From the NCBI GenBank assembly GCA_017512495.1, contig JAFWGF010000006.1, forward strand, positions 1 to 43,792: a DNA stretch of 43,792 nt, written 5' to 3'. The translations under genes and the position numbers were made by a program. The DNA is from Bacilli bacterium. GTDB lineage: Bacteria; Bacillota_I; Bacilli_A; RF39; UBA660. The notes under the pieces were generated by a model that worked only from the letters and a program-made list of their open reading frames with translations, was not told where the DNA came from and did not search any database. Of this stretch, positions 9,622-43,792 are shown piece by piece. Every line of letters starts with the position of its first letter. The stretch's first letter is position 1.

Positions 9622-9852
9622 CTATTTATTCGATTTAATTATTATTATTTTTTTAATTGTTAAAAAAGTAAAAATTAATGACCAAATAATACAAATAATT
9701 ATTAATATATGTTTTGGTAAAGGAATAATATCTTCTGCACCCCATCCTCTACTCATTGGCTTAGTTAATGGCAAAAAAGTATAATAAAAAACTAAAGATA
9801 ATGGAACACATATTATATATATAACTAATTTAATAATTTCTTTTTTAGCCAT
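9622..9852 (-). CDS. Small two-helix membrane protein
   Basis: A 76-residue protein with hydrophobic segments at about 7-28 and 49-68, the loop reading TKPMSRGWGAEDIIPLPKH, and a basic C-terminal end. The start overlaps the last 8 nt of xerD, and AAGGAG lies within the xerD tail, so translation is coupled. No family recognised; it may act with the next gene product as a small membrane pair. Confidence 0.65.
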   Translation of the reverse strand: MAKKEIIKLVIYIICVPLSLVFYYTFLPLTKPMSRGWGAEDIIPLPKHILIIICIIWSLIFTFLTIKKIIIIKSNK

Positions 9853-10738
9853 TTTTATTACTCCTTAAGTGATATTCATTATAATCATCAATTACTTTTT
9901 CATCACTAACTTTAGTATATATCTTAGTAGTAGATATATCAGAATGTCCTAACATTTCTTGGACACTTCTAAGATCTGCTCCTTTATTTACTAAATGAGT
10001 TGCAAAACTATGTCTCAAAGTATGAGGAGAAATATTAGGATTTAATCCTTTTTCTTCTAAGATAGATTTTAAGTTTTTAAAAAATCCTTGTCTAGTCATA
10101 CCTTGTCCATGATTATTTAGAAATAGCTTATTACAAGTTCTTTTCTTTAATAAAGAATCTCTTCTATCTAAATACTCTTGAAGATAATAGATAGAATATT
10201 CACCTAATGGAATATCTCTTTCCTTACTTCCTTTTCCTGATACTCTAATAATACAATTAATCATATCAATATCATTAATTTCTAAATTAACTAGTTCACT
10301 TACTCGTAAACCACATCCATACATTAATTCTAACATAGCTTTATTTCTATAGTCAAATGCCGTATCTAGTTTAATATCAAGTAAATTATCAATATCATCA
10401 ATACTAAGAGCTTTAGGAAGAGCTTTCTTTAATTTAGGTCTATCTATAAATTCAGATACATCTTCTTTAACCAGTTTTTCTTTTAATAGATATTTATGAA
10501 AGTTTTTAATTACTGTTAAATTATGAGCTACTGTAGTTGTTTCTTCTTCAGATCTATCTTTTAAGAAGTTTTTAATATCATTACTACTTATATTATTTAT
10601 ATTAGTAATATGTTTATTCTTTAAATAATCTCTATATACTTCTAAATCATTCTTGTAAGATGATTTAGTACGATCAGATAATCCTTTTTCAAATATACAG
10701 TAATTTAAGAAATCTTCTATAGCAGTTTCTATATCCAT
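9845..10738 (-). CDS. xerD: Tyrosine recombinase XerD
   Basis: Site-specific recombinase that resolves chromosome dimers at dif with XerC, or acts alone. The N-terminal SAM-like core-binding domain spans about residues 1-85 (IEDFLNYCIFEKGLSDRTKSSY) and the catalytic domain about 105-297. Active-site residues are visible: Arg in YGCGLRVSEL, Lys in SGKGSKER, HTLRH, LGHSDISTTKIYT with the second His and the nucleophilic Tyr. Length is typical. The ATG at 10738 is preferred over a GTG three codons upstream because AGGTGA lies 5 nt before it and overlaps that GTG. Followed by two small membrane proteins and deoB. Confidence 0.93.
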   Translation of the reverse strand: MDIETAIEDFLNYCIFEKGLSDRTKSSYKNDLEVYRDYLKNKHITNINNISSNDIKNFLKDRSEEETTTVAHNLTVIKNFHKYLLKEKLVKEDVSEFIDRPKLKKALPKALSIDDIDNLLDIKLDTAFDYRNKAMLELMYGCGLRVSELVNLEINDIDMINCIIRVSGKGSKERDIPLGEYSIYYLQEYLDRRDSLLKKRTCNKLFLNNHGQGMTRQGFFKNLKSILEEKGLNPNISPHTLRHSFATHLVNKGADLRSVQEMLGHSDISTTKIYTKVSDEKVIDDYNEYHLRSNKNG

Positions 10739-10755
10739 ACTAATCACCTATTATA

Positions 10756-12029: not shown

Positions 12030-12053
12030 TATATTAATTTATATCATTTTTTT
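12021..12053. terminator. Bidirectional terminator between rarA and the surface protein gene
   Basis: A-rich stem around TGATATA/TATATCA with loop TTAATT, flanked by A and T runs (12021-12033, 12040-12052). It starts in the rarA stop and serves the converging minus-strand gene too. Confidence 0.85.
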
Positions 12054-14103
12054 ACTCCACAATATATGGATTTTCCATACTTCCATCGCCAGCCTTATAT
12101 TCAGTCCCTGGTTTCAGAGAAATCGTGGGACGAACTCCATAATCATGATCTGCATCGTTGGTACTATAACCGTAAGTGCCTACTGTAAGTACTAGAGCTC
12201 TGTCAAATGAGAAATCATAAGGTGAGTTGAGCCACCAGTCCTGTCCTGTTTTTAATACTTTATAAGCATTTACTAATTTAGCTTCTGAATAGTTTAACAA
12301 TCCTACTGGATATGTTAATTGTGCATTACTGTTTGCTAAACTGAATTTATCTGTTATATTACTGCAACTCATATTATTATTATAGCCGTTAAACTCTAAA
12401 GCTGATGTTACATTTCCTTCATCTGGATTCCATCCTCCTATGTTTCTTATACTTCGGTCATTACAAAATATTGTATCTTCTAGTGCACTCGTATACATCG
12501 TCATATATTTCTTGTACCAAGCATCTATTCCTATTTTTATTGTAGAATTTATTTGGTTTATATTATTATTCAATAGCATTTCATTTTGTGCGTCTTCTAC
12601 ACTTTTTCCCCCAGTTAGATTAATATAATACAATTTCCCAATACTTGCATGAAAAACATATGAAATAGTACTACATTCTCCGGAGACATTAAAACATGTA
12701 TAGTGATGTGTACTTATGCTATCTTCGCTATCAGTGGTATGAGTATCCCATAATGTTACATTATCGCTATCTAAAGTGTATTTCCCTGTTTCTGGATTAT
12801 ATACATACCCTTTAGCAAATTTATATATATCTGATGACTTAAAGTAATATAAATATCTAGGATTACTGTCAAAATTTTCAGTAGAATGCCATACATCACT
12901 ACAAGTATTATTAATAGCGTCTTTACAAATATATTTATTCATCATAATTTCATCGGTATAATCAATTTTATTTATTGTTGTTGGGTTATTGATTGTGTAT
13001 GTTCCATCCCCATTATCAGTGTAACTATCTCCATATGTATATGAAGAGTTATAATAAGCTAAATTGTTTCCATCTTCTAATTCTATAGAATACATCCAAT
13101 ACCACCCTACAGCCGCAATATAATAAATTGATGTGTTTGAATATGTACTTGATGTACTTCTTAGAGTATATTTTCCCACTAGTGATGCATAATCATCCGA
13201 TGAAGAAATTTGATATGGATTTGTTAATGTATATTCATTAGTATTAGTTTCATTATAATCATATGAGTCCGCATAATAATATGATGTGCTTATTTGGCTT
13301 TCATTTGAAATCATTGGCTCAATTAAAGAATTCATAAGATTAGATGGATAAACCGTGTTATACATATATCCTACATTAGCTGGTGAGTTAGAATTCACAT
13401 TATATTGCAGTCTCCCAAATTGGGAATAATGTGAATTAGCATTTAATTGTAGAACATAATAAGTTGTTCCACTTGATAATGTATCTACTAGGTAAAGTGT
13501 AGTACAAGTTCCAGTACTTGTGATTTGTTTGCATGTGTATTGTCCGGGTTGGATTGTTCCAGTTGTGATTGTTCCACTTAAACTAAATGTATTATGCGTT
13601 TTATCATAAGTATAATCTGTCCCATAATAGTATGCTGTAGACATTGATTGTGTATCTTTTCTGGCATACCCAACATGATTACCTCTTGTATTTAGACATT
13701 TACCATCTTCTGCTTCACCATTATAAACCATCTTTACTCCACCGGTATCTGTTGTTCTTATCATTTGCCAGCAATGATCTGCAAATATAACGTTATCCTT
13801 GCTTTGAATTGTTAGTGTATTAACACTGTTATCCAACCAATGATATATCTTTTGAGATGGTTCTTCAGTAAATGAATCATGATGTTCTCCCGTATATTCT
13901 TGAGCATATCCCTTACTAACTGCTTTTTCTAATACTCCATATAGAGTTTGATCATATTTAGATACATTAAGAGTTCCATTTATTCCTAGATTACTAGAGA
14001 ATGCTGAATAACCAATAGATAAGAACACTACTAAAAGAATGATAGTACTTTTAATCATTCTCTTTCTTCTACGTATATTAGATGAAAACTTTCTATTAAA
14101 CAT
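12052..14103 (-). CDS. Leader-bearing secreted/surface protein with Cys-pair repeat modules
   Basis: A 683-residue exported protein. Residues 1-15 are Arg/Lys-rich (MFNRKFSSNIRRRKR), 19-34 are hydrophobic, then YSAF and SNLGINGTLNVS, a leader seen in two more genes here. It resembles SipW/TasA-type signal peptides (inference). A domain at about 104-145 (DNVIFADHCWQMIRTTDTGG) and the end (WWLNSPYDF ... GVRPTISLKPGTEY ... GDGSMENPYIVE) resemble DUF6273-type proteins of Bacillota. Between lie four repeat modules of Tyr/Thr/Asn-rich sequence; three carry a close Cys pair (191/200, 393/401, 470/477) and the second has lost it. No LPXTG or C-terminal helix. Own extended -10 promoter just after the holA terminator. 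Confidence 0.8.
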   Translation of the reverse strand: MFNRKFSSNIRRRKRMIKSTIILLVVFLSIGYSAFSSNLGINGTLNVSKYDQTLYGVLEKAVSKGYAQEYTGEHHDSFTEEPSQKIYHWLDNSVNTLTIQSKDNVIFADHCWQMIRTTDTGGVKMVYNGEAEDGKCLNTRGNHVGYARKDTQSMSTAYYYGTDYTYDKTHNTFSLSGTITTGTIQPGQYTCKQITSTGTCTTLYLVDTLSSGTTYYVLQLNANSHYSQFGRLQYNVNSNSPANVGYMYNTVYPSNLMNSLIEPMISNESQISTSYYYADSYDYNETNTNEYTLTNPYQISSSDDYASLVGKYTLRSTSSTYSNTSIYYIAAVGWYWMYSIELEDGNNLAYYNSSYTYGDSYTDNGDGTYTINNPTTINKIDYTDEIMMNKYICKDAINNTCSDVWHSTENFDSNPRYLYYFKSSDIYKFAKGYVYNPETGKYTLDSDNVTLWDTHTTDSEDSISTHHYTCFNVSGECSTISYVFHASIGKLYYINLTGGKSVEDAQNEMLLNNNINQINSTIKIGIDAWYKKYMTMYTSALEDTIFCNDRSIRNIGGWNPDEGNVTSALEFNGYNNNMSCSNITDKFSLANSNAQLTYPVGLLNYSEAKLVNAYKVLKTGQDWWLNSPYDFSFDRALVLTVGTYGYSTNDADHDYGVRPTISLKPGTEYKAGDGSMENPYIVE

Positions 14104-14124
14104 ATCATCACCTATTATAAGAAA

Positions 14125-27079: not shown

Positions 27080-29632
27080 TTACTTTTTATTGTTTATTTC
27101 TTTCTTTAAATCATATAAATAATTTAATGCTTCCATAGGAGTCATTTCCAATGGATTAATACTATTTATTTTTTCTTCTATTTCATTTTTTTCTTCTACT
27201 ATTTCATCTTCCATTAATTCGAATAGACTAGTTTGAGTAAATGTTTCATTCTTTTTACTTTTCTTTTCATAAACATTTAAAATATCATTAGCTCTTTCTA
27301 TTAAACTATTAGGTAATTTAGCAAGACTAGCTACATGTATACCATAACTTTTATCTACTGCTCCTGATTTTACTTTATGTAAGAAAGTAATAGTACCATT
27401 TTCTTCTACTGCAGAGACATGAACATTCTTTAAATGTTTTAAATCTTTCTCTAGTGCAGTTAATTCATGATAATGAGTTGAGAATAATGTCTTAGCTCCA
27501 ATCTTATCATGAATATACTCTAAAATAGCTTGAGCTAAACTCATACCATCATATGTTGCAGTACCTCTACCTAGTTCATCAAATAATATTAAACTATTAG
27601 GAGTTGCTTCAGAAATAGCTGTATTTGCTTCTTTCATTTCAACCATAAAAGTAGATTCACCACTTACCAAGTCATCACTAGCTCCAATTCTTGTAAATAT
27701 CTTATCAAAAATAGGCATTTTAGCCTTCTTACAAGGGACAAAACATCCAATCTGAGCCATTATAACTGTAATACCTAATTGACGCATATAAGTAGATTTA
27801 CCAGCCATATTAGGACCTGTTATTAAAAGAATAGAAGTTTTCTTATCCATAATAATATCATTAGGAATATATTTATCTCTAATAACTTGTTCTACTACTG
27901 GATGACGACAATCAATAAGCTCAATCTCTTTATCGTTAACAAGTTCTGGTCTAACAAAACTATATTGATCACTTACAATAGAGAAAGCTTGTAACATATC
28001 AACTTCACTAATTACTTTAGCAACTCTTTGTAAATCACTAACATATCTTTTAACTACTTCTCTAATATCCATAAATAATTTATATTCAAGAGAAATAATT
28101 TTTTCTTCAGCACCTAAAATAATATTCTCTTTCTCTTTTAATACTGGAGTAATATATCTTTCAGCATTCGCAAGAGTTTGCTTTCTTTCATAACCCCATT
28201 CTTCTTTAACTAAATTAGTTTGTCCTTTACTAACTTCTATATAATAACCAAATACTTTGTTAAAACCTACTTTTAAATTCTTAATACCAGTTCGCATCTT
28301 TTCTTCTTGTTCCATAGCTAAAATAAAGTCTTTAGAACCACTACTAATACTTTTTAATTCATCTAACTCACTATTATAACCAGTTTTTATTAATCCTCCT
28401 TCATGTAATGTAAAAGGAGCATCTTCTCTAATAGTCTTCTCTAATAAACTATATACTTCATCAAAAGTATCTATAGTTTTATCATATTTTAATTCTTCTA
28501 AGATCTTTTTAATTGTAGGTAGTTCTTTTAAAGAACTTTTTAATTGTAATAAATCTTTAGCATTCAAATTACCATAACTTATTCTTCCTACTAATCTTTC
28601 TAAATCATATACTTCATTTAATGATTTAATTAAATCATCTCTAAGAATAAACTCAGTACGTAGTAACGATACTAAATCATAACGTCGCATCAATTCTTTT
28701 CTATCAGTTAAGGGATTTAAAATACTATGTTTTAAATATCTACTACCCATTGCAGTCTTACATTTGTCAAGTAACCATAATAAACTATATTGTCTATCTC
28801 TATTTCTAATAGTTTCAACTAATTCTAAATTATTCTTAGTATTAGTATCAAATTCTAAATATTCAGAAGATTTTACTATATTACATTCTTGTAAGTGATG
28901 TAAGTCACCTTTCTTAGTTTCAATAATGTAATATAGTAAATGCTTTAATGTAGTAATTAATCTAATATCTTCTATATTTTTATAAATATAATCATAGTCT
29001 TTATCATCTAACTCTTCTTTTTGAATAGATACTAAAATATCATAATTAGTTCTAAGAATATCTACTATTCTTCTATCAGTATTATCACTAACTATAACTT
29101 CTCTAAAACCATTTCTAACTATTTCTTTAATTACTTTATCAATATCTCCATCTACTAAAGTAGCATATACTTCTCCAGTAGAAATATCTGCATAACTAAT
29201 ACCAAAACAATAGTCAAATGAACAGATATTAGCTATATAATTATTACTTTTAGAATCTATATTAGTATCTAATCTAGTACCTTTAGTAACTACTTGTATA
29301 ACATCCCTTTTAACCATACCTTTAGTCTCTTTAGGATCTTCTAATTGTTCACAAATAGCTACTTTATATCCTTTATCAATTAATTCATCTAAATATGAAA
29401 TATAAGCATGATGAGGAATACCACACATAGGAACTCTCTCATCTAATCCTGCTTGTTTACCAGTAAGAGTAAGTTCTAAAACACGTGAAGCAGTAATTGC
29501 ATCATCAAAAAACATTTCATAGAAATCTCCAAGACGAAAGAAGATAATTGAGTCTTCATACTTATCTTTGATTTCCATATATTGTTGCATCATAGGACTA
29601 AGTTTAGTTCTATCTACTTCACTTCTCTTCAT
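27080..29632 (-). CDS. mutS: DNA mismatch repair protein MutS
   Basis: Mismatch sensor ATPase. The mismatch-binding F-x-E lies in FFRLGDFYEMFFDDA (Phe37-Tyr38-Glu39), the connector and lever domains follow (LLDKCKTAMGSRYLKHSILNPL), and the ATPase domain has Walker A TGPNMAGKSTYMRQLG (about residue 615), Walker B LILFDELGRGTATYDG and STHYHEL. The C-terminal tail has the GAVDKSYGIHVA motif and a short end helix. Length 850 is typical. The ATG at 29632 is preferred over a GTG four codons upstream, which is part of the GGTGAG ribosome site. mutL is not adjacent; nusB and xseA follow in the same direction. Confidence 0.97.
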   Translation of the reverse strand: MKRSEVDRTKLSPMMQQYMEIKDKYEDSIIFFRLGDFYEMFFDDAITASRVLELTLTGKQAGLDERVPMCGIPHHAYISYLDELIDKGYKVAICEQLEDPKETKGMVKRDVIQVVTKGTRLDTNIDSKSNNYIANICSFDYCFGISYADISTGEVYATLVDGDIDKVIKEIVRNGFREVIVSDNTDRRIVDILRTNYDILVSIQKEELDDKDYDYIYKNIEDIRLITTLKHLLYYIIETKKGDLHHLQECNIVKSSEYLEFDTNTKNNLELVETIRNRDRQYSLLWLLDKCKTAMGSRYLKHSILNPLTDRKELMRRYDLVSLLRTEFILRDDLIKSLNEVYDLERLVGRISYGNLNAKDLLQLKSSLKELPTIKKILEELKYDKTIDTFDEVYSLLEKTIREDAPFTLHEGGLIKTGYNSELDELKSISSGSKDFILAMEQEEKMRTGIKNLKVGFNKVFGYYIEVSKGQTNLVKEEWGYERKQTLANAERYITPVLKEKENIILGAEEKIISLEYKLFMDIREVVKRYVSDLQRVAKVISEVDMLQAFSIVSDQYSFVRPELVNDKEIELIDCRHPVVEQVIRDKYIPNDIIMDKKTSILLITGPNMAGKSTYMRQLGITVIMAQIGCFVPCKKAKMPIFDKIFTRIGASDDLVSGESTFMVEMKEANTAISEATPNSLILFDELGRGTATYDGMSLAQAILEYIHDKIGAKTLFSTHYHELTALEKDLKHLKNVHVSAVEENGTITFLHKVKSGAVDKSYGIHVASLAKLPNSLIERANDILNVYEKKSKKNETFTQTSLFELMEDEIVEEKNEIEEKINSINPLEMTPMEALNYLYDLKKEINNKK

Positions 29633-29648
29633 ACCTCTCACCAAATTT

Positions 29649-29657
29649 ATTATATCA
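29649..29657 (-). promoter_or_regulatory. Extended -10 promoter of the mutS operon
   Basis: TG-A-TATAAT on the minus strand, 16 nt before the mutS ATG. It lies at the end of a 61-bp repeat whose other copy provides the promoter of dagK. Confidence 0.55.
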
Positions 29658-29716
29658 AAATTAAGACAATAAAAAAAGAAGATTCAATTAATCTTAATTT
29701 ATTAAAGAATCTCCTT
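29656..29716 (-). repeat. 61-bp terminator-promoter repeat, copy 1
   Basis: 58 of 61 bases match the copy at 42709-42769. It contains the hairpin AAAAG-A-AGATTC with GAATCT-C-CTTTT (one mismatch in the stem), forming the terminator of the surface protein gene upstream on the minus strand, and runs into the extended -10 of mutS. Confidence 0.8.
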
Positions 29717-29757: not shown

Positions 29758-32040
29758 CTATTCTACAATATACGGGTCAGCCATACTACCTGTGCCACTT
29801 ACATATTCAGTTCCTGGCTTTAGAGAGATTGCTGGACGTATTCCATTTGGATTTGTAGTTGATGCTGGTTCTTTTTCATCATCATATTGGAATACGATAT
29901 CTCCAGTATTTCTAGTAATATTTACTAATGAATCAACACCATTACCAAATAGTTCGGTAACATATGCCATAGGAGTCATTAACCAATAATTAGTGCCAGT
30001 GCGTCTTATTTGATTATTGTTAAGTAGATTCATTTCCTCATATGTAAATAATCCAATTTTATAATTAATTCTCGCTGATGGATTACTTGTACAAAATTTA
30101 TCAGTATTTTTTTGACATGATAAATCTTCAGGGACCTGGAAAGGCATAATGTCAGATGAAGGATAACTGGTATCAGTCCAATAGTTTTCAGGATTTCTAT
30201 TATTACAAAATATTGTATCTTCTAAATAATTATCATATGGTAACAAATATTTACTATACCATCTTTCAATACGATCTTTTATAAGTGAATCACTAGTGTT
30301 TAAACTAAATGCATTAGAAAAGGCATTAGAAATAGAGGCAGCACCATCATGTAGTTCTACATGGTAATCTATTTCATCTCTATGTTTATAATATATATAA
30401 TATGTTTTGGAACAGGTAGTAGTACCTATCGTATCACATTTATAGTGATAATTGGTACTGTTATATTCATCGAAATGTACTGGATTAACTAGTGTATAAT
30501 TGGTTCCATTCCATGTTGCACTAGAACCATAGTAATAATTAGCTAAATAATTATAACCATCGGAAGAAATACCATATAGTCTTCTTATAGTTTCTGCAGT
30601 ACAAATATTACTAGTTGTATTGCATGTATATTTATAAGAACTATAATTACTTCGATTTATAACTAATTCATCTTTTCTAACTAACAAAGTATCAGTTAGT
30701 GTTAAACCGCTTGCCGATTTGGCAATTAGGATTTTTTCATTTGGATCTATGCTTATATACTTAAAATTATCTGGGCCTAAAGATCCTATATATTTTGGAT
30801 TAGCACAAGTATTCAGTGCTAAACATGTATACTTTCCTGCCCAACTAGTAGAACGACCATTATACCAAGTTAGTAGACTTACAGGTGTAGTGTTATTAAC
30901 AGTATACGTTCCATTTCCATTATCTGTAATTGAATCACCTAGTAAAATAGGTTCATATGCTGAGAGCAAATTACCATTGTTTATTTCTACATAATATATT
31001 TTTGATGATGTTGCTCCAACTATATAATATGCACTAGTTGAAGTACCATTTTCACTAGATAATTTTAAAGTATATTTTCCAACTAATTGAGAGTATTGAC
31101 TTGTACTTGTTATTTTAAATGTATTAGTTAAGGAATAATTATTAGATGAATAAGTAATATCTTCTCCAAACCAATATGATGTAGAATATCCGCTATTATT
31201 GAATAACGTTTCAGTTTGAGAGAAATTTTCTTTATAATATTGAGACGTTCCACCAATTGAATATTTAGTTCCATTCATATAGCCTACGTTGCTCAGATTT
31301 TGCCAGTCGTTACTATATTTTGAAACTCCAATCTGATAATAAGATGTAGTGTTATTTAATGGTGTAACATTATAGTAGGATTCACCACTACGATATGAAT
31401 CAACTATATATAGAGTTGAACACGTACCTGTACTTGTAGTTTGTCTACATGTATATTGTCCTAGTTGTATTGTACCTGTTGTAATTGTTCCGGCTAATGA
31501 AAAAAGATTATTTGCTTTATCATACGTATAACTTGTTCCATAATAATATGTTGGATATATTAATGTACTATCTTCTGCTTTGTACCCTATATGATTACCT
31601 CTAGTATTAATACATTGATTGTTTTCTGCTTCTCCGTTATAAATCATCTTTACTCCACCAGTATCAGTAGTTCTTATCATTTGCCAACACTGATCTGCAA
31701 AAATAACATTGTTTTTATCTAGGATTTCGGTTGCTAATGCATTTCCTGCAGTAGTACTAGGCGCATACCAATGATATATTTTTTTAGTTGGTTCTACTGT
31801 ATAAGAATCACGATGTTGTCCAGTATATTCTTTTGCATATGTGCCTTGATTAGCCGCTTTTTTCAATACTCCATAAAGAGTATTTCCTTCATATTCAGAA
31901 ACATTTAAGGTTCCACTTATTCCTAGATTAGTAGTAAATGCTGAATAACCTAAACCTAAACACACTACTAAAAGAATGATAGTAGATCTAATCATTCTTC
32001 TTTTTAAACGTATATTAGATGAAAATTTTCTATTAAACAT
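29758..32040 (-). CDS. Leader-bearing secreted/surface protein with Cys-pair repeat modules (paralogue)
   Basis: A 760-residue paralogue of the 683-residue protein at 12 kb. Same leader (MFNRKFSSNIRLKRR, hydrophobic 19-31, YSAFTTNLGISGTLNVS), same DNVIFADQCWQMIRTTDTGG domain (about 111-145) and same end (GIRPAISLKPGTEYVSGTGS, then MADPYIVE). Five repeat modules lie between, four with a Cys pair (198/207, 406/412, 473/480, 535/543) and the second without. The conserved EDTIFCNNR stretch precedes the final domain. No LPXTG or C-terminal membrane helix, so its attachment is unclear. TTGTAT-N17-TAGAAT promoter and AGGTGATG upstream. The leader DNA is almost identical to that of the next gene, which has an unrelated ectodomain. 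Confidence 0.82.
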   Translation of the reverse strand: MFNRKFSSNIRLKRRMIRSTIILLVVCLGLGYSAFTTNLGISGTLNVSEYEGNTLYGVLKKAANQGTYAKEYTGQHRDSYTVEPTKKIYHWYAPSTTAGNALATEILDKNNVIFADQCWQMIRTTDTGGVKMIYNGEAENNQCINTRGNHIGYKAEDSTLIYPTYYYGTSYTYDKANNLFSLAGTITTGTIQLGQYTCRQTTSTGTCSTLYIVDSYRSGESYYNVTPLNNTTSYYQIGVSKYSNDWQNLSNVGYMNGTKYSIGGTSQYYKENFSQTETLFNNSGYSTSYWFGEDITYSSNNYSLTNTFKITSTSQYSQLVGKYTLKLSSENGTSTSAYYIVGATSSKIYYVEINNGNLLSAYEPILLGDSITDNGNGTYTVNNTTPVSLLTWYNGRSTSWAGKYTCLALNTCANPKYIGSLGPDNFKYISIDPNEKILIAKSASGLTLTDTLLVRKDELVINRSNYSSYKYTCNTTSNICTAETIRRLYGISSDGYNYLANYYYGSSATWNGTNYTLVNPVHFDEYNSTNYHYKCDTIGTTTCSKTYYIYYKHRDEIDYHVELHDGAASISNAFSNAFSLNTSDSLIKDRIERWYSKYLLPYDNYLEDTIFCNNRNPENYWTDTSYPSSDIMPFQVPEDLSCQKNTDKFCTSNPSARINYKIGLFTYEEMNLLNNNQIRRTGTNYWLMTPMAYVTELFGNGVDSLVNITRNTGDIVFQYDDEKEPASTTNPNGIRPAISLKPGTEYVSGTGSMADPYIVE

Positions 32041-32064
32041 ATCATCACCTATTATGCATTCTAA
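31910..32064 (-). repeat. 155-bp leader repeat, copy 1
   Basis: Covers the -10 region, ribosome site and first about 43 codons of the gene ending at 32040. It differs from the copy at 33561-33715 at five positions by my count. A more diverged third copy is at about 13970-14120. Confidence 0.85.
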
Positions 32065-32086
32065 CTTTATTTTATCATTTATACAA
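32058..32086 (-). promoter_or_regulatory. Promoter of the second Cys-module surface protein gene
   Basis: Minus strand TTGTAT (32086-32081), 17-nt spacer, TAGAAT (32063-32058), 17 nt before the ATG. Confidence 0.55.
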
Positions 32087-32111
32087 AAAGATTATAATAA
32101 ACTGGTTATGT

Positions 32112-32138
32112 ACAATAAAGAATGAGTAATCATTCTTT
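32112..32138 (-). terminator. Terminator of the BspA-repeat gene
   Basis: Stem AAAGAATGA/TCATTCTTT with a 4-nt loop (32117-32125, 32130-32138), followed on the minus strand by ATTGT. The T tract is weak. Confidence 0.6.
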
Positions 32139-32161
32139 TATCATATGACTATCAGTTAAAT

Positions 32162-33691
32162 TCATGATGAAGCAAGAGTAAATGTTCTACTACTAGGTGG
32201 ACTAGCATAAGTTGAAGTAGTTGATCCATACATATGTGTAGTATCATTATTAATACCATTACCATTAGTTTGTGGTATTGTAAGTGAGAAGTTTGTGATA
32301 TTATTTCCTACATAGTTAAACATAGAACTCATATTTGTTACTTGTGATGTATTCCATCCACTTAAATTCAAATTGAATGTTGTAGAATTTGATCCTGCTT
32401 GATAAAACATAGTATTCATATTTGTTACTTTGGATGTGTCCCATCCACTTAAATTCAAATCAAATGTTTGTGTCTTAAGACCTGCATAGCTAAACATAAA
32501 ACTCATATTTGTAACTTGGGATGTGTCCCATCCACTTAAATCACCTATGTTCCACATTATAGCATTATTTCCTGCACCTGAAAACATATAACTCATGTCA
32601 GTTACTTGAGATGTGGTCCATTCACTTAAATCACCTATACTCCATGATGTGGCATTAGCTGCTGCATAGTTAAACATATTATTCATATCTGTTACTTTTG
32701 AGGTGTCCCATTCACTTAAATCTAAATTAAATGTTGTGGCTCTACTTGCAACGTGACTAAACATATTACTCATATCAGTTACTTGAGATGTGGTCCACCC
32801 ACTTATGTCTCCAATATTCCATGTTATGGCATTAGATCCTGCATGGTTAAACATATTATTCATATCTGTTACTTTTGAGGTGTCCCATTCACTTAAATCT
32901 CCAATATCCCATGTTGTAGCACTACGTCCTGCATATTGAAATATTTTTTCCATACTTGTTACTTTTGATGTGTTCCAACCACTTAAATCTCCGACAGTCC
33001 ATGTTGTGGCATTATATCCTGCCCACTCAAACATATAACTCATACTTGTTACTTTTGATGTGTTCCAACCACTTAAATCTAAATTGAAAATTGTGGCCCT
33101 TACCCCTGCATTACTAAACATGTTATACATATCTGTTACTTGCGAAATATCCCATCCACTTAAATCTCCGACAGTCCATGTTGTGGCACTATATCCTGTA
33201 TAACTAAACATTGAATGCATATTTGTTAATTGGAAAGTATTAAGTTTTTCTAAATTTGCAATAAATGTTGATGCATTATATCCTACTGCGTAAAACCAAT
33301 AAGCTGTTGATATAGGGCTTATTTCTTTTTCTATATTTACTGTTGTTACATTATAGCTTTTATTACTAGTAGAAGAATAATTATATGTCGCTATCCACGG
33401 TACTTGGGAAATACTAATGAAATTAGTATTAGGTTCAAAATTTCCCTGCTCAACACCTGTTACTTCTTCACTTGATAAGACTAGTGTTTCATTTATACTG
33501 TTATTGTCATTATCTTGTAGAGCCCAATATATTTTTGGGTTATATTTAGATACATTAAGTGTTCCATTTATTCCTAGATTAGTAGTAAATGCAGAATAAC
33601 CTAATCCTAAACACACCACTAAAAGAATGATAGTAGATCTAATCATTCTTCTTTTTAAACGTATATTAGATGAGAATTTTCTATTAAACAT
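32162..33691 (-). CDS. BspA-type repeat surface protein with shared leader
   Basis: A 509-residue exported protein. The leader (residues 1-48) is the same as in the 760-residue neighbour. A unique region follows (about 50-140, including STAYWFYAVGYN). Residues about 140-470 are eleven BspA (DUF285) repeats of 29-30 residues of the form ATTWxIGDLSGW, then NTSKVTxMxxMF. A cap with TIPQTNGNGINNDTTHMYGS ends the protein without anchor or LPXTG. BspA proteins of oral and gut bacteria and of protists bind host surfaces; the role here is inferred. TTTACT-N17-TATAAT promoter upstream. Confidence 0.85.
   Translation of the reverse strand: MFNRKFSSNIRLKRRMIRSTIILLVVCLGLGYSAFTTNLGINGTLNVSKYNPKIYWALQDNDNNSINETLVLSSEEVTGVEQGNFEPNTNFISISQVPWIATYNYSSTSNKSYNVTTVNIEKEISPISTAYWFYAVGYNASTFIANLEKLNTFQLTNMHSMFSYTGYSATTWTVGDLSGWDISQVTDMYNMFSNAGVRATIFNLDLSGWNTSKVTSMSYMFEWAGYNATTWTVGDLSGWNTSKVTSMEKIFQYAGRSATTWDIGDLSEWDTSKVTDMNNMFNHAGSNAITWNIGDISGWTTSQVTDMSNMFSHVASRATTFNLDLSEWDTSKVTDMNNMFNYAAANATSWSIGDLSEWTTSQVTDMSYMFSGAGNNAIMWNIGDLSGWDTSQVTNMSFMFSYAGLKTQTFDLNLSGWDTSKVTNMNTMFYQAGSNSTTFNLNLSGWNTSQVTNMSSMFNYVGNNITNFSLTIPQTNGNGINNDTTHMYGSTTSTYASPPSSRTFTLASS
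32290..33274 (-). repeat. BspA tandem repeat array (87/90 bp units)
   Basis: Eleven imperfect units, mixing a 30-residue type (TWxIGDLSGW) and a 29-residue type (TFNLxLSGW). DNA similarity between units is high enough for slippage or recombination. Confidence 0.85.
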
Positions 33692-33715
33692 ATCATCACC
33701 TATTATGCATTCTAA
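33561..33715 (-). repeat. 155-bp leader repeat, copy 2
   Basis: Near-identical partner of 31910-32064, covering the ribosome site and first about 43 codons of the BspA-repeat gene. Confidence 0.85.
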
Positions 33716-33719
33716 TTTA

Positions 33720-33748
33720 ATTATACTATTGATTAGTTTTTTAGTAAA
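33720..33748 (-). promoter_or_regulatory. Sigma-A promoter of the BspA-repeat gene
   Basis: Minus strand TTTACT (33748-33743), 17-nt spacer, TATAAT (33725-33720), 28 nt before the ATG. Confidence 0.6.
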
Positions 33749-33773
33749 TGAAAAAGACTACCTAAGTAGTCTT
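33747..33773 (-). terminator. Terminator of the ABC exporter operon
   Basis: Stem AAGACTAC/GTAGTCTT with loop CTAA (33754-33761, 33766-33773), then TTTCATT on the minus strand. It begins in the stop codon. Confidence 0.8.
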
Positions 33774-35877
33774 ATTTTTGGAATTGTGAGTTATATAATT
33801 TAGCATAGAAACCATTCTTCTTTAATAGCTCTTCATGTTTTCCTTGCTCTACTATATTTCCTTCATCCATTACTAGAATTAAATCAGCATTTTTAATAGT
33901 ACTTAATCTATGCGCAATAATAAAACTTGTTTTACCTACTGTTAGTTTATCCATTGCTTTTTGTACTAATTCTTCTGTACGAGTATCAACATTACTTGTC
34001 GCTTCATCAAGTATTAAGAAAGGTGCATCTTCAATCATACCTCTGGCTATAGTTAATAACTGTTTTTGTCCAGAAGATATTGTATTACTATCTCCAACAC
34101 TTGCACCTAAACCTTTTGGTAATGTTTTTATGAAGTGATCTATTCCTACATTTTTGCATACTTTCCATAAATCATCATCAGTAATACCTTTATTATTAAA
34201 TACTAAGTTTTCACGTACGGATCCTTCAAATAACCAAGTATCTTGTAAAACCATATCAAACAATTCATGAATATTAGATCTAGTTAAATCTTTAATAGAT
34301 ACTCCATCTATTAAGATATCTCCCTCATCTATTTCATAGAATTTCATAAGCAAGTTAACCATTGTAGTTTTACCAGCTCCTGTTGGCCCTACAATAGCTA
34401 TTTTATCTCCTGATTTAACTGAAGCCGTAAAATTCTTAATAATAGTTTTATCTTTACTGTAACCAAATTTAATATTTTTAAATTCAATATTACCTTTAAC
34501 ATTGTCTCTATCTAATTTAGATTTAATATTACTTTCATCACTTAATTCAACTTCTTCTAAGAATTCAAATACTCTTTCTCCTGCTGCTCCTACAGATTGC
34601 ATTGTAGTTAAAGCTTGAGCAATACGTGATAATGGATTAGTAAATAGTCTTACATAAATCATAAAAGCTACTATAACACCAAAAGTAATATAATTATTCA
34701 TTACTAGTAGTGCTCCTACTACACAGACCATTACATAACCAAAGTTACCTATAAATGACATTATTGGTTGCATAATACCTGATAAGAATTGACTCTTACG
34801 ATTACATTCATATAATCTATCATTTATTTTATTAAATTCTTTTAAAGCCTCTTCTTCACCATTATATGATTTAACAACACTATGTCCTGAATATATTTCT
34901 TCAATATGTCCATTTAAATTACCTAGTTCTTTTTGTCTTTGAACAAAGTATTTTTGACTAATTCTTAATAACATGAATGATAAAGCAAAACCAATAATAC
35001 TAGAAGCAATAGCAGTTAAAGCCATTATCCAATTAGTTACAAACATCATAATAATAGATCCTAAGAATAATGTAACATTAGTAACTAAAGATGTAACTGC
35101 ATCACTTATATTAATACCTATAGTATCAACATCATTAGTAACCCGAGATAAAATATCTCCAGCTTCATGTGAATCAAAGTATCTTAATGGTAATTTATTA
35201 ATCTTATGACTAATATCACTTCTTAACTTTCTAGCATAACCTATTCCTACATAAGCCATTATTATACCTTCAGCATAACCAAATATTGAATTTAACAAAT
35301 AAATAATACCTAAAACAATTGCTTTTCTTTTTAATTCTTGAGTATTCATTTTAGGCTCTATTAAACCTTTTATTGAATCTGGCAAATCATCCATTTTTAC
35401 TAATAAATCATCTATAACAGTATCTTTATCAATTGTATTTATTATTTCTAAATACTTTAATTGATCTTCAGTAGAAATAATTACATTATCTACTTCTATT
35501 TCTGTAAATATTATTCTTTTTTCTTGTTCAGTTAATTTATTAAGATAATTAATTAGCTTTTCAGTATTATCAGTAGCAGAATTAGAATTATTATTCGTAT
35601 TATTATATTGAGGATTAATTACTGTGAAATAATTATCTAAAGCATTATGATACATTGTTTTTGATATTTTTTCTAATTTTTTTGTATTTGGTTTTATTCC
35701 TGCACTAATTACATCTGTAACACCAGCTAATCTATTAGGAGCTATTGTTGATAATATAGCAGCAGAGAAAGCAAATAATACTGCAATTATAAGTAAATAT
35801 CTCCAATGGTCTAAATTTTTAAATAATTTAATCATTGTTCCTACAAAGTCTTTTGATTTTTCTTGATTTCTATGCAT
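33772..35877 (-). CDS. ABC exporter half, consensus ATPase subunit of a heterodimer
   Basis: About 701 residues: a membrane domain with TM1 at about 27-48, a large inserted soluble segment (about 60-190), then five more helices, and an ATPase domain from about 450. Walker A GPTGAGKTT, signature TISSGQKQ (altered from LSGGQ), Walker B FLILDEATSNVD with the catalytic Glu present, and H-loop AHRLST. With its partner upstream this makes a BmrCD/LmrCD-like multidrug-exporter pair with one intact and one degenerate site. The ATG at 35877 follows GAGGAG at 7 nt and overlaps the partner gene by 8 nt. Substrate unknown. Confidence 0.92.
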   Translation of the reverse strand: MHRNQEKSKDFVGTMIKLFKNLDHWRYLLIIAVLFAFSAAILSTIAPNRLAGVTDVISAGIKPNTKKLEKISKTMYHNALDNYFTVINPQYNNTNNNSNSATDNTEKLINYLNKLTEQEKRIIFTEIEVDNVIISTEDQLKYLEIINTIDKDTVIDDLLVKMDDLPDSIKGLIEPKMNTQELKRKAIVLGIIYLLNSIFGYAEGIIMAYVGIGYARKLRSDISHKINKLPLRYFDSHEAGDILSRVTNDVDTIGINISDAVTSLVTNVTLFLGSIIMMFVTNWIMALTAIASSIIGFALSFMLLRISQKYFVQRQKELGNLNGHIEEIYSGHSVVKSYNGEEEALKEFNKINDRLYECNRKSQFLSGIMQPIMSFIGNFGYVMVCVVGALLVMNNYITFGVIVAFMIYVRLFTNPLSRIAQALTTMQSVGAAGERVFEFLEEVELSDESNIKSKLDRDNVKGNIEFKNIKFGYSKDKTIIKNFTASVKSGDKIAIVGPTGAGKTTMVNLLMKFYEIDEGDILIDGVSIKDLTRSNIHELFDMVLQDTWLFEGSVRENLVFNNKGITDDDLWKVCKNVGIDHFIKTLPKGLGASVGDSNTISSGQKQLLTIARGMIEDAPFLILDEATSNVDTRTEELVQKAMDKLTVGKTSFIIAHRLSTIKNADLILVMDEGNIVEQGKHEELLKKNGFYAKLYNSQFQK

Positions 35878-37630
35878 TTTGTAACTCCTCCTCACTAAGT
35901 TGTGAAAGAGCTATTTCTTTATAGATATCACAATTCTTTAATAGTTCTTGGTGAGTTCCAACTCCTACACATTCACCTTTATCTAAAACAATAATTTTAT
36001 CAGCATTCATTATAGTACCAATTCTTTGAGCAACTATTAAACTAGTAGCATCTTTCATATGTTTTTTTAATTCAGCACGTAGTTTAGCATCTGTTTGGTA
36101 GTCTAAAGCACTAAATGAATCATCAAATATATAAATCTCTGGGTCCCTTGCGATAGCTCTAGCAATACTTAATCTTTGTTTTTGACCACCGCTTACATTA
36201 GTACCACCACGAGCTATATGAGCTTTATAGTCTTTATCCATCTTTTCTACAAAGTCTTTTCCTTGAGCTATTTTAATAGCTTCTTTTACTTTATCTAGAG
36301 AAGGTTTTTCTTTACCATTATCTCCATAACTAACATTATCATATACAGAGCCTGTAAACATAAATGCAGTTTGGGCAATATAACCTATTCTATTATTTAA
36401 TTCGTGTAAATCATAATCTTTTACATTAACACCATCTACGAATACTTCTCCTAGAGTAGCATCATATAATCTAGGTACTAAATTAATTAATGTACTTTTA
36501 CCACTACCAGTAGATCCTATAAAAGCAACTGTTTCACCCTTCTCTGCTTTAAAACTAATATTCTTTAGTAAGTATTCATCTGCATCAGGATACTTAAAAC
36601 TAACATTTCTAAATTCAACTGTTCCTTTTTCATTAGTCTTTCCTTTAAAATCACCTGATTTAATAGATGGTTCTTCATCTAAAACTTCATTAATACGATT
36701 CGCTGATACTCTAGCTCTTGGTAATATCATAAATATCATTGTAAGCATTAAGAATGAAAATATTACTTGAATACCATAACTAGAGAAAACCACCATATTA
36801 CTAAACATTGTAATTTTATCCATCATATTACTTTTAATAATTAACATAGCTCCAATTATATAGATACCTAAGTGTTGAAAATGCATAACAAAGTTCATAA
36901 TTGGATCAAATAAAGCAAATGTCTTAGTAATAGTTAAATGTATATCAGATAATTCATCATTTACTTTACCAAATCTCTTCATCATAAATTTTTCAGCATT
37001 AAATGCAGATACTACTCTTACACCAAGTATATTTTCTCTAGCTACTCCATTTAATTTATCTGTTAAGCTTTGAATAATCTTAAATCTTGGAGAAACAATA
37101 CTAATAATAGTTAAGTTTGTAACTACAATTATAATTACTCCTACACCAGTAACTAAACTTAATTCTGTACTTTTACCAATTATCTTAGTTAAAGCCCATA
37201 TTGCCATTACTGGTGATTTTATTAATAATTGTAATCCCATAGCAAGTAACATTTCTATTTGTGTAACATCATTAGTAGTCCTAGTAATTAAACTACTAGT
37301 TTTAAATTTCTTTATTTCAGCAATTCCAAATGATTCTACTTTTTCAAATATCTTTCTTCTCATTGTTCTAGAGAATTTAGCAGCTAAAAGAGATGAAAAG
37401 AATCCTACTGTAATTGTACAAATTAAACTTAATACTGCACATAAAATCATATGTCCGCCGGAAGTTAATATTTCATTCATAGTACTATTTTCAGTTTGAA
37501 CTAATCTAGTTATTTCACTCATATACTCTGGTATTCTTAAATCTAAAAATACTGAAGTTATAACTAAAGTAGCAATTACTAATATAATCCAGAAATCTCT
37601 TTTTTCTAAATTTTTAAATATTCTAACCAT
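35870..37630 (-). CDS. ABC exporter half, degenerate ATPase subunit of a heterodimer
   Basis: A 586-residue half transporter: six helices in residues 15-300, then the ATPase domain with Walker A GSTGSGKST (about 370), signature NVSGGQKQRLS (intact), Walker B IYIFDDSFSALD where Asp replaces the catalytic Glu, and AQRIGTI where Gln replaces the switch His. This asymmetry mirrors the partner: the sites are completed across the dimer, so one is degenerate, as in heterodimeric exporters such as BmrCD. The ATG directly follows the tag stop (TAGATG) with AAGGA before it. Confidence 0.92.
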   Translation of the reverse strand: MVRIFKNLEKRDFWIILVIATLVITSVFLDLRIPEYMSEITRLVQTENSTMNEILTSGGHMILCAVLSLICTITVGFFSSLLAAKFSRTMRRKIFEKVESFGIAEIKKFKTSSLITRTTNDVTQIEMLLAMGLQLLIKSPVMAIWALTKIIGKSTELSLVTGVGVIIIVVTNLTIISIVSPRFKIIQSLTDKLNGVARENILGVRVVSAFNAEKFMMKRFGKVNDELSDIHLTITKTFALFDPIMNFVMHFQHLGIYIIGAMLIIKSNMMDKITMFSNMVVFSSYGIQVIFSFLMLTMIFMILPRARVSANRINEVLDEEPSIKSGDFKGKTNEKGTVEFRNVSFKYPDADEYLLKNISFKAEKGETVAFIGSTGSGKSTLINLVPRLYDATLGEVFVDGVNVKDYDLHELNNRIGYIAQTAFMFTGSVYDNVSYGDNGKEKPSLDKVKEAIKIAQGKDFVEKMDKDYKAHIARGGTNVSGGQKQRLSIARAIARDPEIYIFDDSFSALDYQTDAKLRAELKKHMKDATSLIVAQRIGTIMNADKIIVLDKGECVGVGTHQELLKNCDIYKEIALSQLSEEELQNA

Positions 37631-42686: not shown

Positions 42687-42701
42687 ATTACCACCAACTA
42701 A

Positions 42702-42710
42702 ATTATACCA
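42702..42710 (-). promoter_or_regulatory. Extended -10 promoter of the lipid kinase gene
   Basis: TG-G-TATAAT on the minus strand, its -10 ending 15 nt before the ATG and joined to the 61-bp repeat, as at mutS. Confidence 0.6.
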
Positions 42711-42769
42711 AAATTAAGATAATAAAAAAAGAAGATTCAATTAATCTTAATTTAATAAAGAATCTTCTT
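42709..42769 (-). repeat. 61-bp terminator-promoter repeat, copy 2
   Basis: Matches 29656-29716 at 58 of 61 bases. Its hairpin AAGAAGATTC/GAATCTTCTT is perfect and lies 4 nt past the stop of the BspA gene, so it acts as that gene's terminator and leads into the dagK promoter. Confidence 0.8.
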
Positions 42770-42772
42770 AAT

Positions 42773-43792
42773 TTATGATGTTGCAAGTGTAAACGTTCTA
42801 CTACTAGGTGGATCCGCATAAGTTGATGTAGTTGATCCATACATATGTGTAGTATCATTATTAATACCATTACCATTAGTTCTAGGTATTGTGATAGTGA
42901 ATGTTGTTGCATTTCTACCTGCATAGAAAAACATAGAATCCATATTTGTTACCTTTGATGTGTCCCATCCGCTTAAATTTAAATTAACTATTGCAGCTGT
43001 ATGTCCTGCGCAATAAAACATATAACTCATATTTGTTACCTTTGATGTGTCCCATCCACTTAAATCTCCTATATCCCATGTAGTGGCACTATATCCTGCA
43101 TAGGAAAACATATCAGTCATATTTGTTACTTGAGAGGTATTCCATCCACTTAAATCTCCTATATCCCATGTTGCTGCTATTTCTCCTGCATTTTGAAACA
43201 TAGAACTCATATTTGTTACCTTTGATGTGTCCCATCCGCTCAAATCTCCTATATCCCATGTGGTGGCACTATATCCTGTATAGCCAAACATATAACTCAT
43301 ATATGCTACTTGGGAGGTGTCCCATCCACTTAAATCTCCGATATACCATGTTGTGGCATCACGTCCTGCACAATAAAACATATAACTCATATCAGTTACT
43401 TTTGAAGTATTCCATCCACTTAAATCTCCGATATTCCATGTTGTGGCACTATATCCTGCATTGAAAAACATATAAGACGTATCTGTTACTTGAGATATAT
43501 TCCATTCACTTAAATCTCCTATATTCCATGTTGTGGAACTATATCCTGCTTGATCAAACATACTACTCATATTTGTTACTTGAGAGGTGTTCCATTCACT
43601 TAAATTCAAATTGAAACTTGGAGAGTAATATCCTGCACAATCAAACATAGTACTCATGTTTGTCACCTGAGAAGTATTCCATCCACTTAAACCTCCTATA
43701 TTCCATGTTGTGGCACTATTTCCTGCATTGTTAAACATAGAGTTCATATTTGTTACCTTTGACGTATCCCAACCACTTAAATTCAAATCGAA
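42773..43792 (-). CDS. BspA-type repeat surface protein, 3' part (runs off the window)
   Basis: C-terminal part of another BspA-repeat protein; the frame is still open at the right edge, so leader and start are missing. About ten repeats of 29-30 residues (ATTWDIGDLSGW, then DTSKVTNMSYMF) are followed by the cap TIPRTNGNGINNDTTHMYGS and an end differing from the 32-kb protein mainly in DPPS for SPPS and TS for SS. There is no anchor motif. The gene ends at the second copy of the 61-bp repeat. A leader like that of the 32-kb gene is expected but not visible. Confidence 0.85.
   Translation of the reverse strand, partial: FDLNLSGWDTSKVTNMNSMFNNAGNSATTWNIGGLSGWNTSQVTNMSTMFDCAGYYSPSFNLNLSEWNTSQVTNMSSMFDQAGYSSTTWNIGDLSEWNISQVTDTSYMFFNAGYSATTWNIGDLSGWNTSKVTDMSYMFYCAGRDATTWYIGDLSGWDTSQVAYMSYMFGYTGYSATTWDIGDLSGWDTSKVTNMSSMFQNAGEIAATWDIGDLSGWNTSQVTNMTDMFSYAGYSATTWDIGDLSGWDTSKVTNMSYMFYCAGHTAAIVNLNLSGWDTSKVTNMDSMFFYAGRNATTFTITIPRTNGNGINNDTTHMYGSTTSTYADPPSSRTFTLATS
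42900..43792 (-). repeat. BspA tandem repeat array at right edge
   Basis: About ten units of 87 or 90 bp, several nearly identical in DNA (for example the units around 43010-43090 and 43190-43270), extending past the window. Confidence 0.85.

Follow-up and report, generated by a model that had tools for sequence, protein, structure and literature searches.

A family of SipW-like leaders joined to different ectodomains, and evidence for ectodomain exchange between species of uncultured Bacilli

Surface-protein shuffling is best known from pathogens that evade immunity. In emm switching, the region of a surface-protein gene is replaced by recombination between lineages, at one locus and among alleles of one family. 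This switching in group A streptococci is one precedent system (PMC10700362) for the genes considered here. In the phase-variable Vpma, Vsp and Vsa lipoprotein families of Mycoplasma, a conserved 5' region and signal-peptide segment is joined to different ectodomains by recombination (PMC2268961). The Ureaplasma MBA N-terminal paralogues and the UU172 element share a 5' region for signal peptide and anchor, behind which exchange generates chimeras (PMC3047005), and for the PARCEL (DUF285) repeat proteins horizontal exchange and recombination with other expressed open reading frames have been proposed (PMC2996958). Here we describe a family of export leaders found on a stretch of 43,792 nucleotides (the window), which is contig C4 of a Bacilli metagenome-assembled genome (MAG; G000, 1.37 Mb in 51 contigs, 86% complete). 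These leaders stand in front of unrelated ectodomains, and we consider it likely from sequence comparison that they are resident SipW-type modules and that the ectodomains behind them are swapped by homologous recombination, both inside a species and across species.

As in Vpma, Vsp and Vsa, a 5' region and signal-peptide segment are conserved across the members of the leader family. The Mycoplasma genes, however, are clustered and use one active promoter and a dedicated recombinase, whereas the genes described here are dispersed, each copy having its own promoter-like sequence, and the exchange that could be mapped lies between species, with its break downstream of a palindrome in the leader. 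The Ureaplasma system relies on DNA inversion at inverted repeats in one element, while here no inversion was seen and the positions are spread along the chromosome. The DUF285 ectodomains of this family are themselves PARCEL members, although the published work treats the repeat, whereas in the present family it is the leader that is shared, and the exchange that is better documented concerns a different, Cys-type ectodomain. Unlike emm switching, the system extends over many gaps, employs several unrelated types of ectodomain and involves exchange across species. Within a limited literature search, the dispersed gaps, the several unrelated ectodomains and an interspecies swap with the resident leader kept go beyond these precedents, and we regard the system as a variant of a known theme.

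The leader family and its ectodomains

Two adjacent genes of the window, A2 and A1, begin with nearly the same leader and a third, B, with a more diverged copy. These genes and their leaders are as follows.

29758-32040, minus strand: gene A2, leader and Cys-type ectodomain, 760 aa (no Pfam or NCBIfam match)
31910-32063, minus strand: leader block copy of the Cys-type gene A2, ribosome-binding site and codons 1-43 (alignment to A1)
32162-33691, minus strand: gene A1, leader and DUF285/PARCEL-repeat ectodomain, 509 aa (PF03382, E 7e-100; TIGR02167, E 1e-45)
33561-33714, minus strand: leader block copy of the DUF285 gene A1 (alignment to A2)
33720-33748, minus strand: promoter-like site of A1 (TTTACT-17-TATAAT), outside the shared block (consensus match only)
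12052-14103, minus strand: gene B, leader and Cys-type ectodomain, 683 aa (protein comparison with A2)
13952-14118, minus strand: third leader copy, at gap B, more diverged (DNA match, 86%)
42773-43792, minus strand: second DUF285 gene (gap G), C-terminal part, cut by the window end (leader on contig C1, 682-831)

The block shared by A1 and A2 measures 155 nt (-23 to +131 around the ATG) and is 96.8% identical, with two of its five mismatches falling in codons 1-28 and the other three in codons 29-43. Past codon 43 the genes diverge rapidly, and their mature parts are unrelated (best BLASTP E 0.06). An earlier note on this DNA, made from the sequence alone, had described a segment of this length with the ribosome-binding site, 43 codons and five differences, in front of unrelated mature parts, all of which stands; the -10 region that it placed in the segment falls outside, as the near-identical block excludes the clear -10 (TATAAT) of A1. 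Among the other leader copies, the shared 5' edge lies only about 13-20 nt upstream of the ATG. The same note called the A1 protein a BspA-repeat protein. This label was dropped: PF03382 and TIGR02167 match above the curated cut-off in A1, as they do in the gap G gene, and Pfam and NCBIfam profile searches gave DUF285 and chance matches for A1 and no leucine-rich-repeat model. Its third copy does start gene B with a diverged leader, but the ectodomain behind it is related to that of A2, the B protein being 41% identical to A2 over its length, which places both in the Cys family. Contigs C4 and C1 overlap by exactly 141 nt, so that the second DUF285 gene spans their join.

To follow up this block, the note had proposed listing all genome copies with their ectodomains and looking for a SipW-like signal peptidase elsewhere. 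A DNA search of G000 gave eight copies on six contigs (C4 and C1 adjoin), six of them Cys-type and two DUF285 proteins, and a protein search gave 36 places with related leaders. Seven SipW-type (ER-type) signal peptidases match over the TIGR02228 cut-off, which served as the threshold. These SipW/archaeal-type peptidases lie on C31, C45, C46, C16, C38 and C37 (L083-L088 and one without a locus), several of them beside runs of small TasA-like proteins (L263, L264, L265).

Among 39 genus genomes searched, clear leader copies occur in three besides G000, namely G004 (RGIG2506, goat jejunum; JAFRIS01), G019 (RUG13858) and G026 (SRR1222429_bin.142; CAMNCL01). The set that we studied comprises 21 leaders from these four genomes and RGIG3504, a further sister species from goat rumen, with one genome per species in the leader comparisons. 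The related records are MAGs labelled uncultured Bacilli, Erysipelotrichaceae, Bacillales and the like, many from rumen or gut. Behind the 21 leaders stand 14 Cys, five DUF285 and one DUF7507/DUF11-type ectodomain, and one untyped fragment. Leader signatures cross these types: KVDKY in G019 and SSLILLVVFLT in G026 each appear on proteins of the Cys as well as the DUF285 type. Codon identity at shared residues among Cys genes is 0.76 in the leader versus 0.62-0.65 in the ectodomain.

The leader is made up of an AGGTGA ribosome site, a basic N-region, a hydrophobic helix, a SipW/TasA-type cleavage region and a short flexible linker, and would serve export, anchoring and cleavage. Y32 and F35 are present in all 21 copies, within a motif GY[SA]-AF or close variants of it, position 34 being A or V. 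The TasA cleavage site TWA-AFND needs SipW (PMC10269814), and the two motifs share an aromatic P2 and a Phe at P2' (GY[SA]-AF and TWA-AF), the position of cleavage here being placed by analogy. G000 also encodes SipW-type peptidases, as noted above. In contrast to the TasA arrangement, no SipW gene adjoins the members of the leader family (MFNRKF genes) that were fetched, and the ectodomains are not TasA. The NCBIfam SipW-substrate models did not match proteins P0001-P0004, and TIGR04090 was below cut-off for the gap C protein of G026.

An interspecies swap and the chromosomal gaps

The clearest case is found at gap B, where G000, G004 and G026 all carry a Cys-type gene. Between G004 and G026 the upstream flank is 81.3% identical, the downstream flank 87.7% and the leader (nt 0-88, codons 1-29) 83.0%. 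From nt 88 to 1960, however, the two genes are 98.8% identical (23 of 1869 positions differ), and an unrelated tail follows. This puts the 5' break at nt 89-131 (codons 30-44) and the 3' break near 1958-1963. The G000 copy is far from both. Both swapped copies are located inside long contigs (JAFRIS010000015.1 and CAMNCL010000002.1; 81 and 180 kb) of separate public assemblies. In the predicted structure of A2 (mean predicted local distance difference test score 86) a single helix covers residues 9-39, residues 38-48 are of low confidence and an ordered, beta-rich ectodomain begins at about residue 53; the breaks at codons 30-44 would therefore fall at the joint between modules.

Leader copies are single genes between housekeeping genes. 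Gap border genes were named by eye from translations, except where a Pfam match is cited. Gap A of the window is bordered by two genes.

33772-35895, minus strand: ATP-binding cassette (ABC) transporter gene that borders gap A upstream and is conserved in sister species
27080-29644, minus strand: mutS, downstream border of gap A (Pfam match; genus-wide search)

Gap A holds a DUF285 and then a Cys gene in G000, DUF285 in G026, Cys in G019 (where the mutS side is not assembled) and an untyped ectodomain in RGIG3504; it is empty in G004, and no leader gene was present there in the outgroup congeners that were read. The promoter region and leader align across the four species that carry a gene here, with a switch to a different ectodomain past codon 48 or so. 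Gap C (tsaD/alcohol dehydrogenase) has a Cys gene in G000, G019 and G004 and a DUF7507/DUF11-type gene in G026, the leader of which closely matches other leaders only over its first 17 or so codons; ten outgroup congeners have no leader gene at this gap. Gap D (dnaJ) is filled by a Cys gene in G000 and empty in G026, and the dnaJ search gave no match in G004 or G019. At gap F, near ruvA, G000 has a Cys gene and G004, G019 and G026 have no MFNRKF gene, with another leader class nearby in G004 and G026. Gap H (trmD operon) carries Cys in G019 and G004, is empty in G026 and holds two genes of another leader class in G000. Gap M was left unscored in G000 and G004, because the murE search returned only a 41% paralogue in each. 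At gap C of G019 we also observed a gene adjoining the Cys gene (L067:2938-3705) that appears YhcG/DUF1016-like by eye.

The ectodomains do not follow the gaps, their best matches often lying at other gaps, and the trees are in topological conflict with them: a single clade of same-gap ectodomains was rejected by the approximately unbiased (AU) test at gaps B (5e-8), C (2.7e-7) and H (7.6e-7). Leader similarity partly follows the genome. Between different ectodomain types the leader distance is 28.2 within genomes versus 36.2 between them, with p 0.0008 in a permutation across types that treats related genes as exchangeable, and forcing the DUF285 leaders into one clade costs 32 log-likelihood units at an AU p of just 0.03. 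The leaders at gaps H and I of G019, on separate contigs, differ at 4 of 164 nt and the window pair at 10 of 164, against about 15-45 for most other pairs.

The handling of related genes in this permutation and the marginal AU value weigh against ectodomain exchange behind resident leaders, as do further points. Resolution of the leader tree is poor (164 columns, one starred branch). One exchange only is recent enough to show both breakpoints, and replacement of the whole gene or an independent insertion could still be responsible at gaps A and C. Every genome is an incomplete MAG in which repeats may have driven assembly errors. Finally, different loci and species retain the same rare synonymous codons within codons 2-28 (0.85 versus 0.64 in the ectodomain, Mann-Whitney U test 1e-4), for which ectodomain exchange alone is insufficient.

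The earlier note had suggested a mobile or recombining expression-and-export cassette. The recombining part agrees with our results, in that the leader is joined to different ectodomains through the gap B swap and the change of ectodomain at gap A behind a homologous promoter and leader, and in that the AU rejections and the partial dependence of leader similarity on genome point the same way. A mobile expression cassette is not supported, because the promoter lies outside the shared unit and searches of plasmids, phages and IMG/VR yielded no relatives that would link the leader to a plasmid or phage; moreover, the gap B ectodomain moved while the leader stayed.

In the mechanism that we favour, the leader, together with the promoter at gap A, would stay in place at each gap. 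At about codons 30-44 of the conserved leader, homologous recombination would trade the ectodomain for that of a paralogue or of another species, and in the clear case the exchange would end within the C-terminal motif that is conserved among Cys-type proteins. Leaders of one genome could become near-identical through separate exchange tracts over codons 1-28, giving rise to the A1/A2 pair of the window. Several ectodomain types would thus be displayed by one export and anchoring module, and replacement of the outer part by recombination would account for the different outer domains that sister species show at the same chromosomal position. All four genomes carry comEC; DNA uptake by competence, RecA-type homologous recombination, processing by SipW and display at the surface are presumed steps, as would be any benefit. 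Surface variation through such leader-ectodomain exchange is a reasonable inference.

The mapped case concerns an uncultured lineage that is not known to be linked to disease, in which the outer part of a presumed surface protein is traded across species while the lineage retains its own export leader. Such exchange could serve attachment, phage avoidance or competition in rumen and gut. Three other leader families of G000 (MRIDKDN, MRRRKF and MAFKRR; L022-L042) have N-terminal 180 residues that are 71-98% identical and C-termini at 14-70%, mostly below 50%, and therefore a large share of the surface repertoire in these small-genome Bacilli may follow the same principle.

Conserved codons 1-28 and alternative explanations

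Within its conserved codons the leader contains a 26-bp palindrome, AGAATGAT-N10-ATCATTCT, which is exact or near-exact in 20 of the 21 leaders with constant spacing and was absent from all dinucleotide shuffles of the window.

31973-31998, plus strand: palindrome in the A2 leader, codons 15-23 (0 expected in shuffles)
33624-33649, plus strand: same palindrome in the A1 leader (0 expected in shuffles)
14036-14061, plus strand: same palindrome in the B leader, with a different spacer sequence (0 expected in shuffles)

Valine at codon 26 is encoded by GTG in 20 of 20 copies, compared with a background of 5%, and a function of codons 2-28 at the nucleotide level is possible, the gap B break lying outside this stretch. 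Extending this, codons 1-28 might hold a DNA or RNA element dedicated to directing exchange or to co-regulating all copies, in a dispersed, multi-locus display where unrelated ectodomains of several species are exchanged behind a marked leader; we consider this doubtful.

An ordinary gene family, in which one tandem duplication was followed by divergence and leader-ectodomain pairs were inherited intact, is improbable. A1 and A2 are indeed adjacent and in the same orientation, and most Cys proteins belong to one ectodomain family. Tandem duplication would have copied the ectodomain too, yet the mature parts of A1 and A2 are unrelated, the near-identical G019 pair is on two different contigs, and it is contradicted by same-gap ectodomains that are not clades and by the gap B ectodomain that moved between species without its leader. 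Fixed, syntenic pairs arising from one tandem duplication had earlier been named as the outcome that would speak against a cassette; at the level of species, this is not what we found.

Decidedly improbable, in our estimate, is a site-specific target of the Vpma/Vsp type, with a tyrosine recombinase acting on the palindrome to exchange ectodomains. The constant spacing and fixed rare codons of the palindrome would suit such a site, and the Vpma 5' untranslated and signal-peptide region is likewise conserved and used in xer1 switching (PMC2268961). The gap B break (nt 89-131), however, falls on the downstream side of the palindrome (nt 43-68), and leader differences persist between the two; the copies are also scattered, and by eye every one has an upstream -10-like sequence of its own. 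The sole recombinase noticed in the window (9845-10747, XerD-like by eye, near gap B) stands in a gene order conserved in G004 and G026, no genome-wide recombinase search having been made.

Constraint from an RNA or DNA function (a 5' coding hairpin, attenuator or operator) would make leader similarity a matter of selection rather than exchange. The synonymous conservation of codons 2-28, which falls to 0.66 in codons 29-50, agrees with this, as does a hairpin that recurs at one position in 19 of 21 leaders (mean z -1.9 versus synonymous shuffles). We nevertheless hold it very improbable, since it explains neither the swap nor the closeness of the window and G019 pairs, and the gap B leaders of G004 and G026 are no more conserved than their flanks (83% versus 81-88%). 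No convincing compensatory base pairs for the hairpin were seen, and Rfam gave no match in the window.

That chimeric contigs were assembled or binned from conserved leaders and repeats is hardly credible. In its favour, only MAGs were compared, one contig is broken within DUF285 repeats, and the copy of RGIG3504 runs to the edge of its contig, but the swapped copies, 1.2% apart, are each joined to the leader and flanks of their own species in long contigs of two assemblies, and gap A carries different ectodomains in four species.

The Cys ectodomain and minor observations

The Cys ectodomain family has no Pfam or NCBIfam match, a PDB sequence search yielded chance matches, and Foldseek with the A2 model returned nothing below E 0.001. 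For the A2 ectodomain (residues 49-740), VIA-align listed the Lcl C-terminal domain (best Z 5.8) and other C-type-lectin-like chains, a similarity too weak to support a common fold.

A terminator-like repeat of 78 nt, 91% identical between its copies at 29639-29716 and 42692-42769, is found 3' of two leader genes. As G004 has the same element at its empty gap A, the repeat was set aside as a 3' cassette boundary. Elsewhere, at L218:3596-5965, a relative of the Cys-type proteins carries at its N-terminus a type IV prepilin methylation motif (PF07963, E 2e-8) in place of the SipW-like leader.

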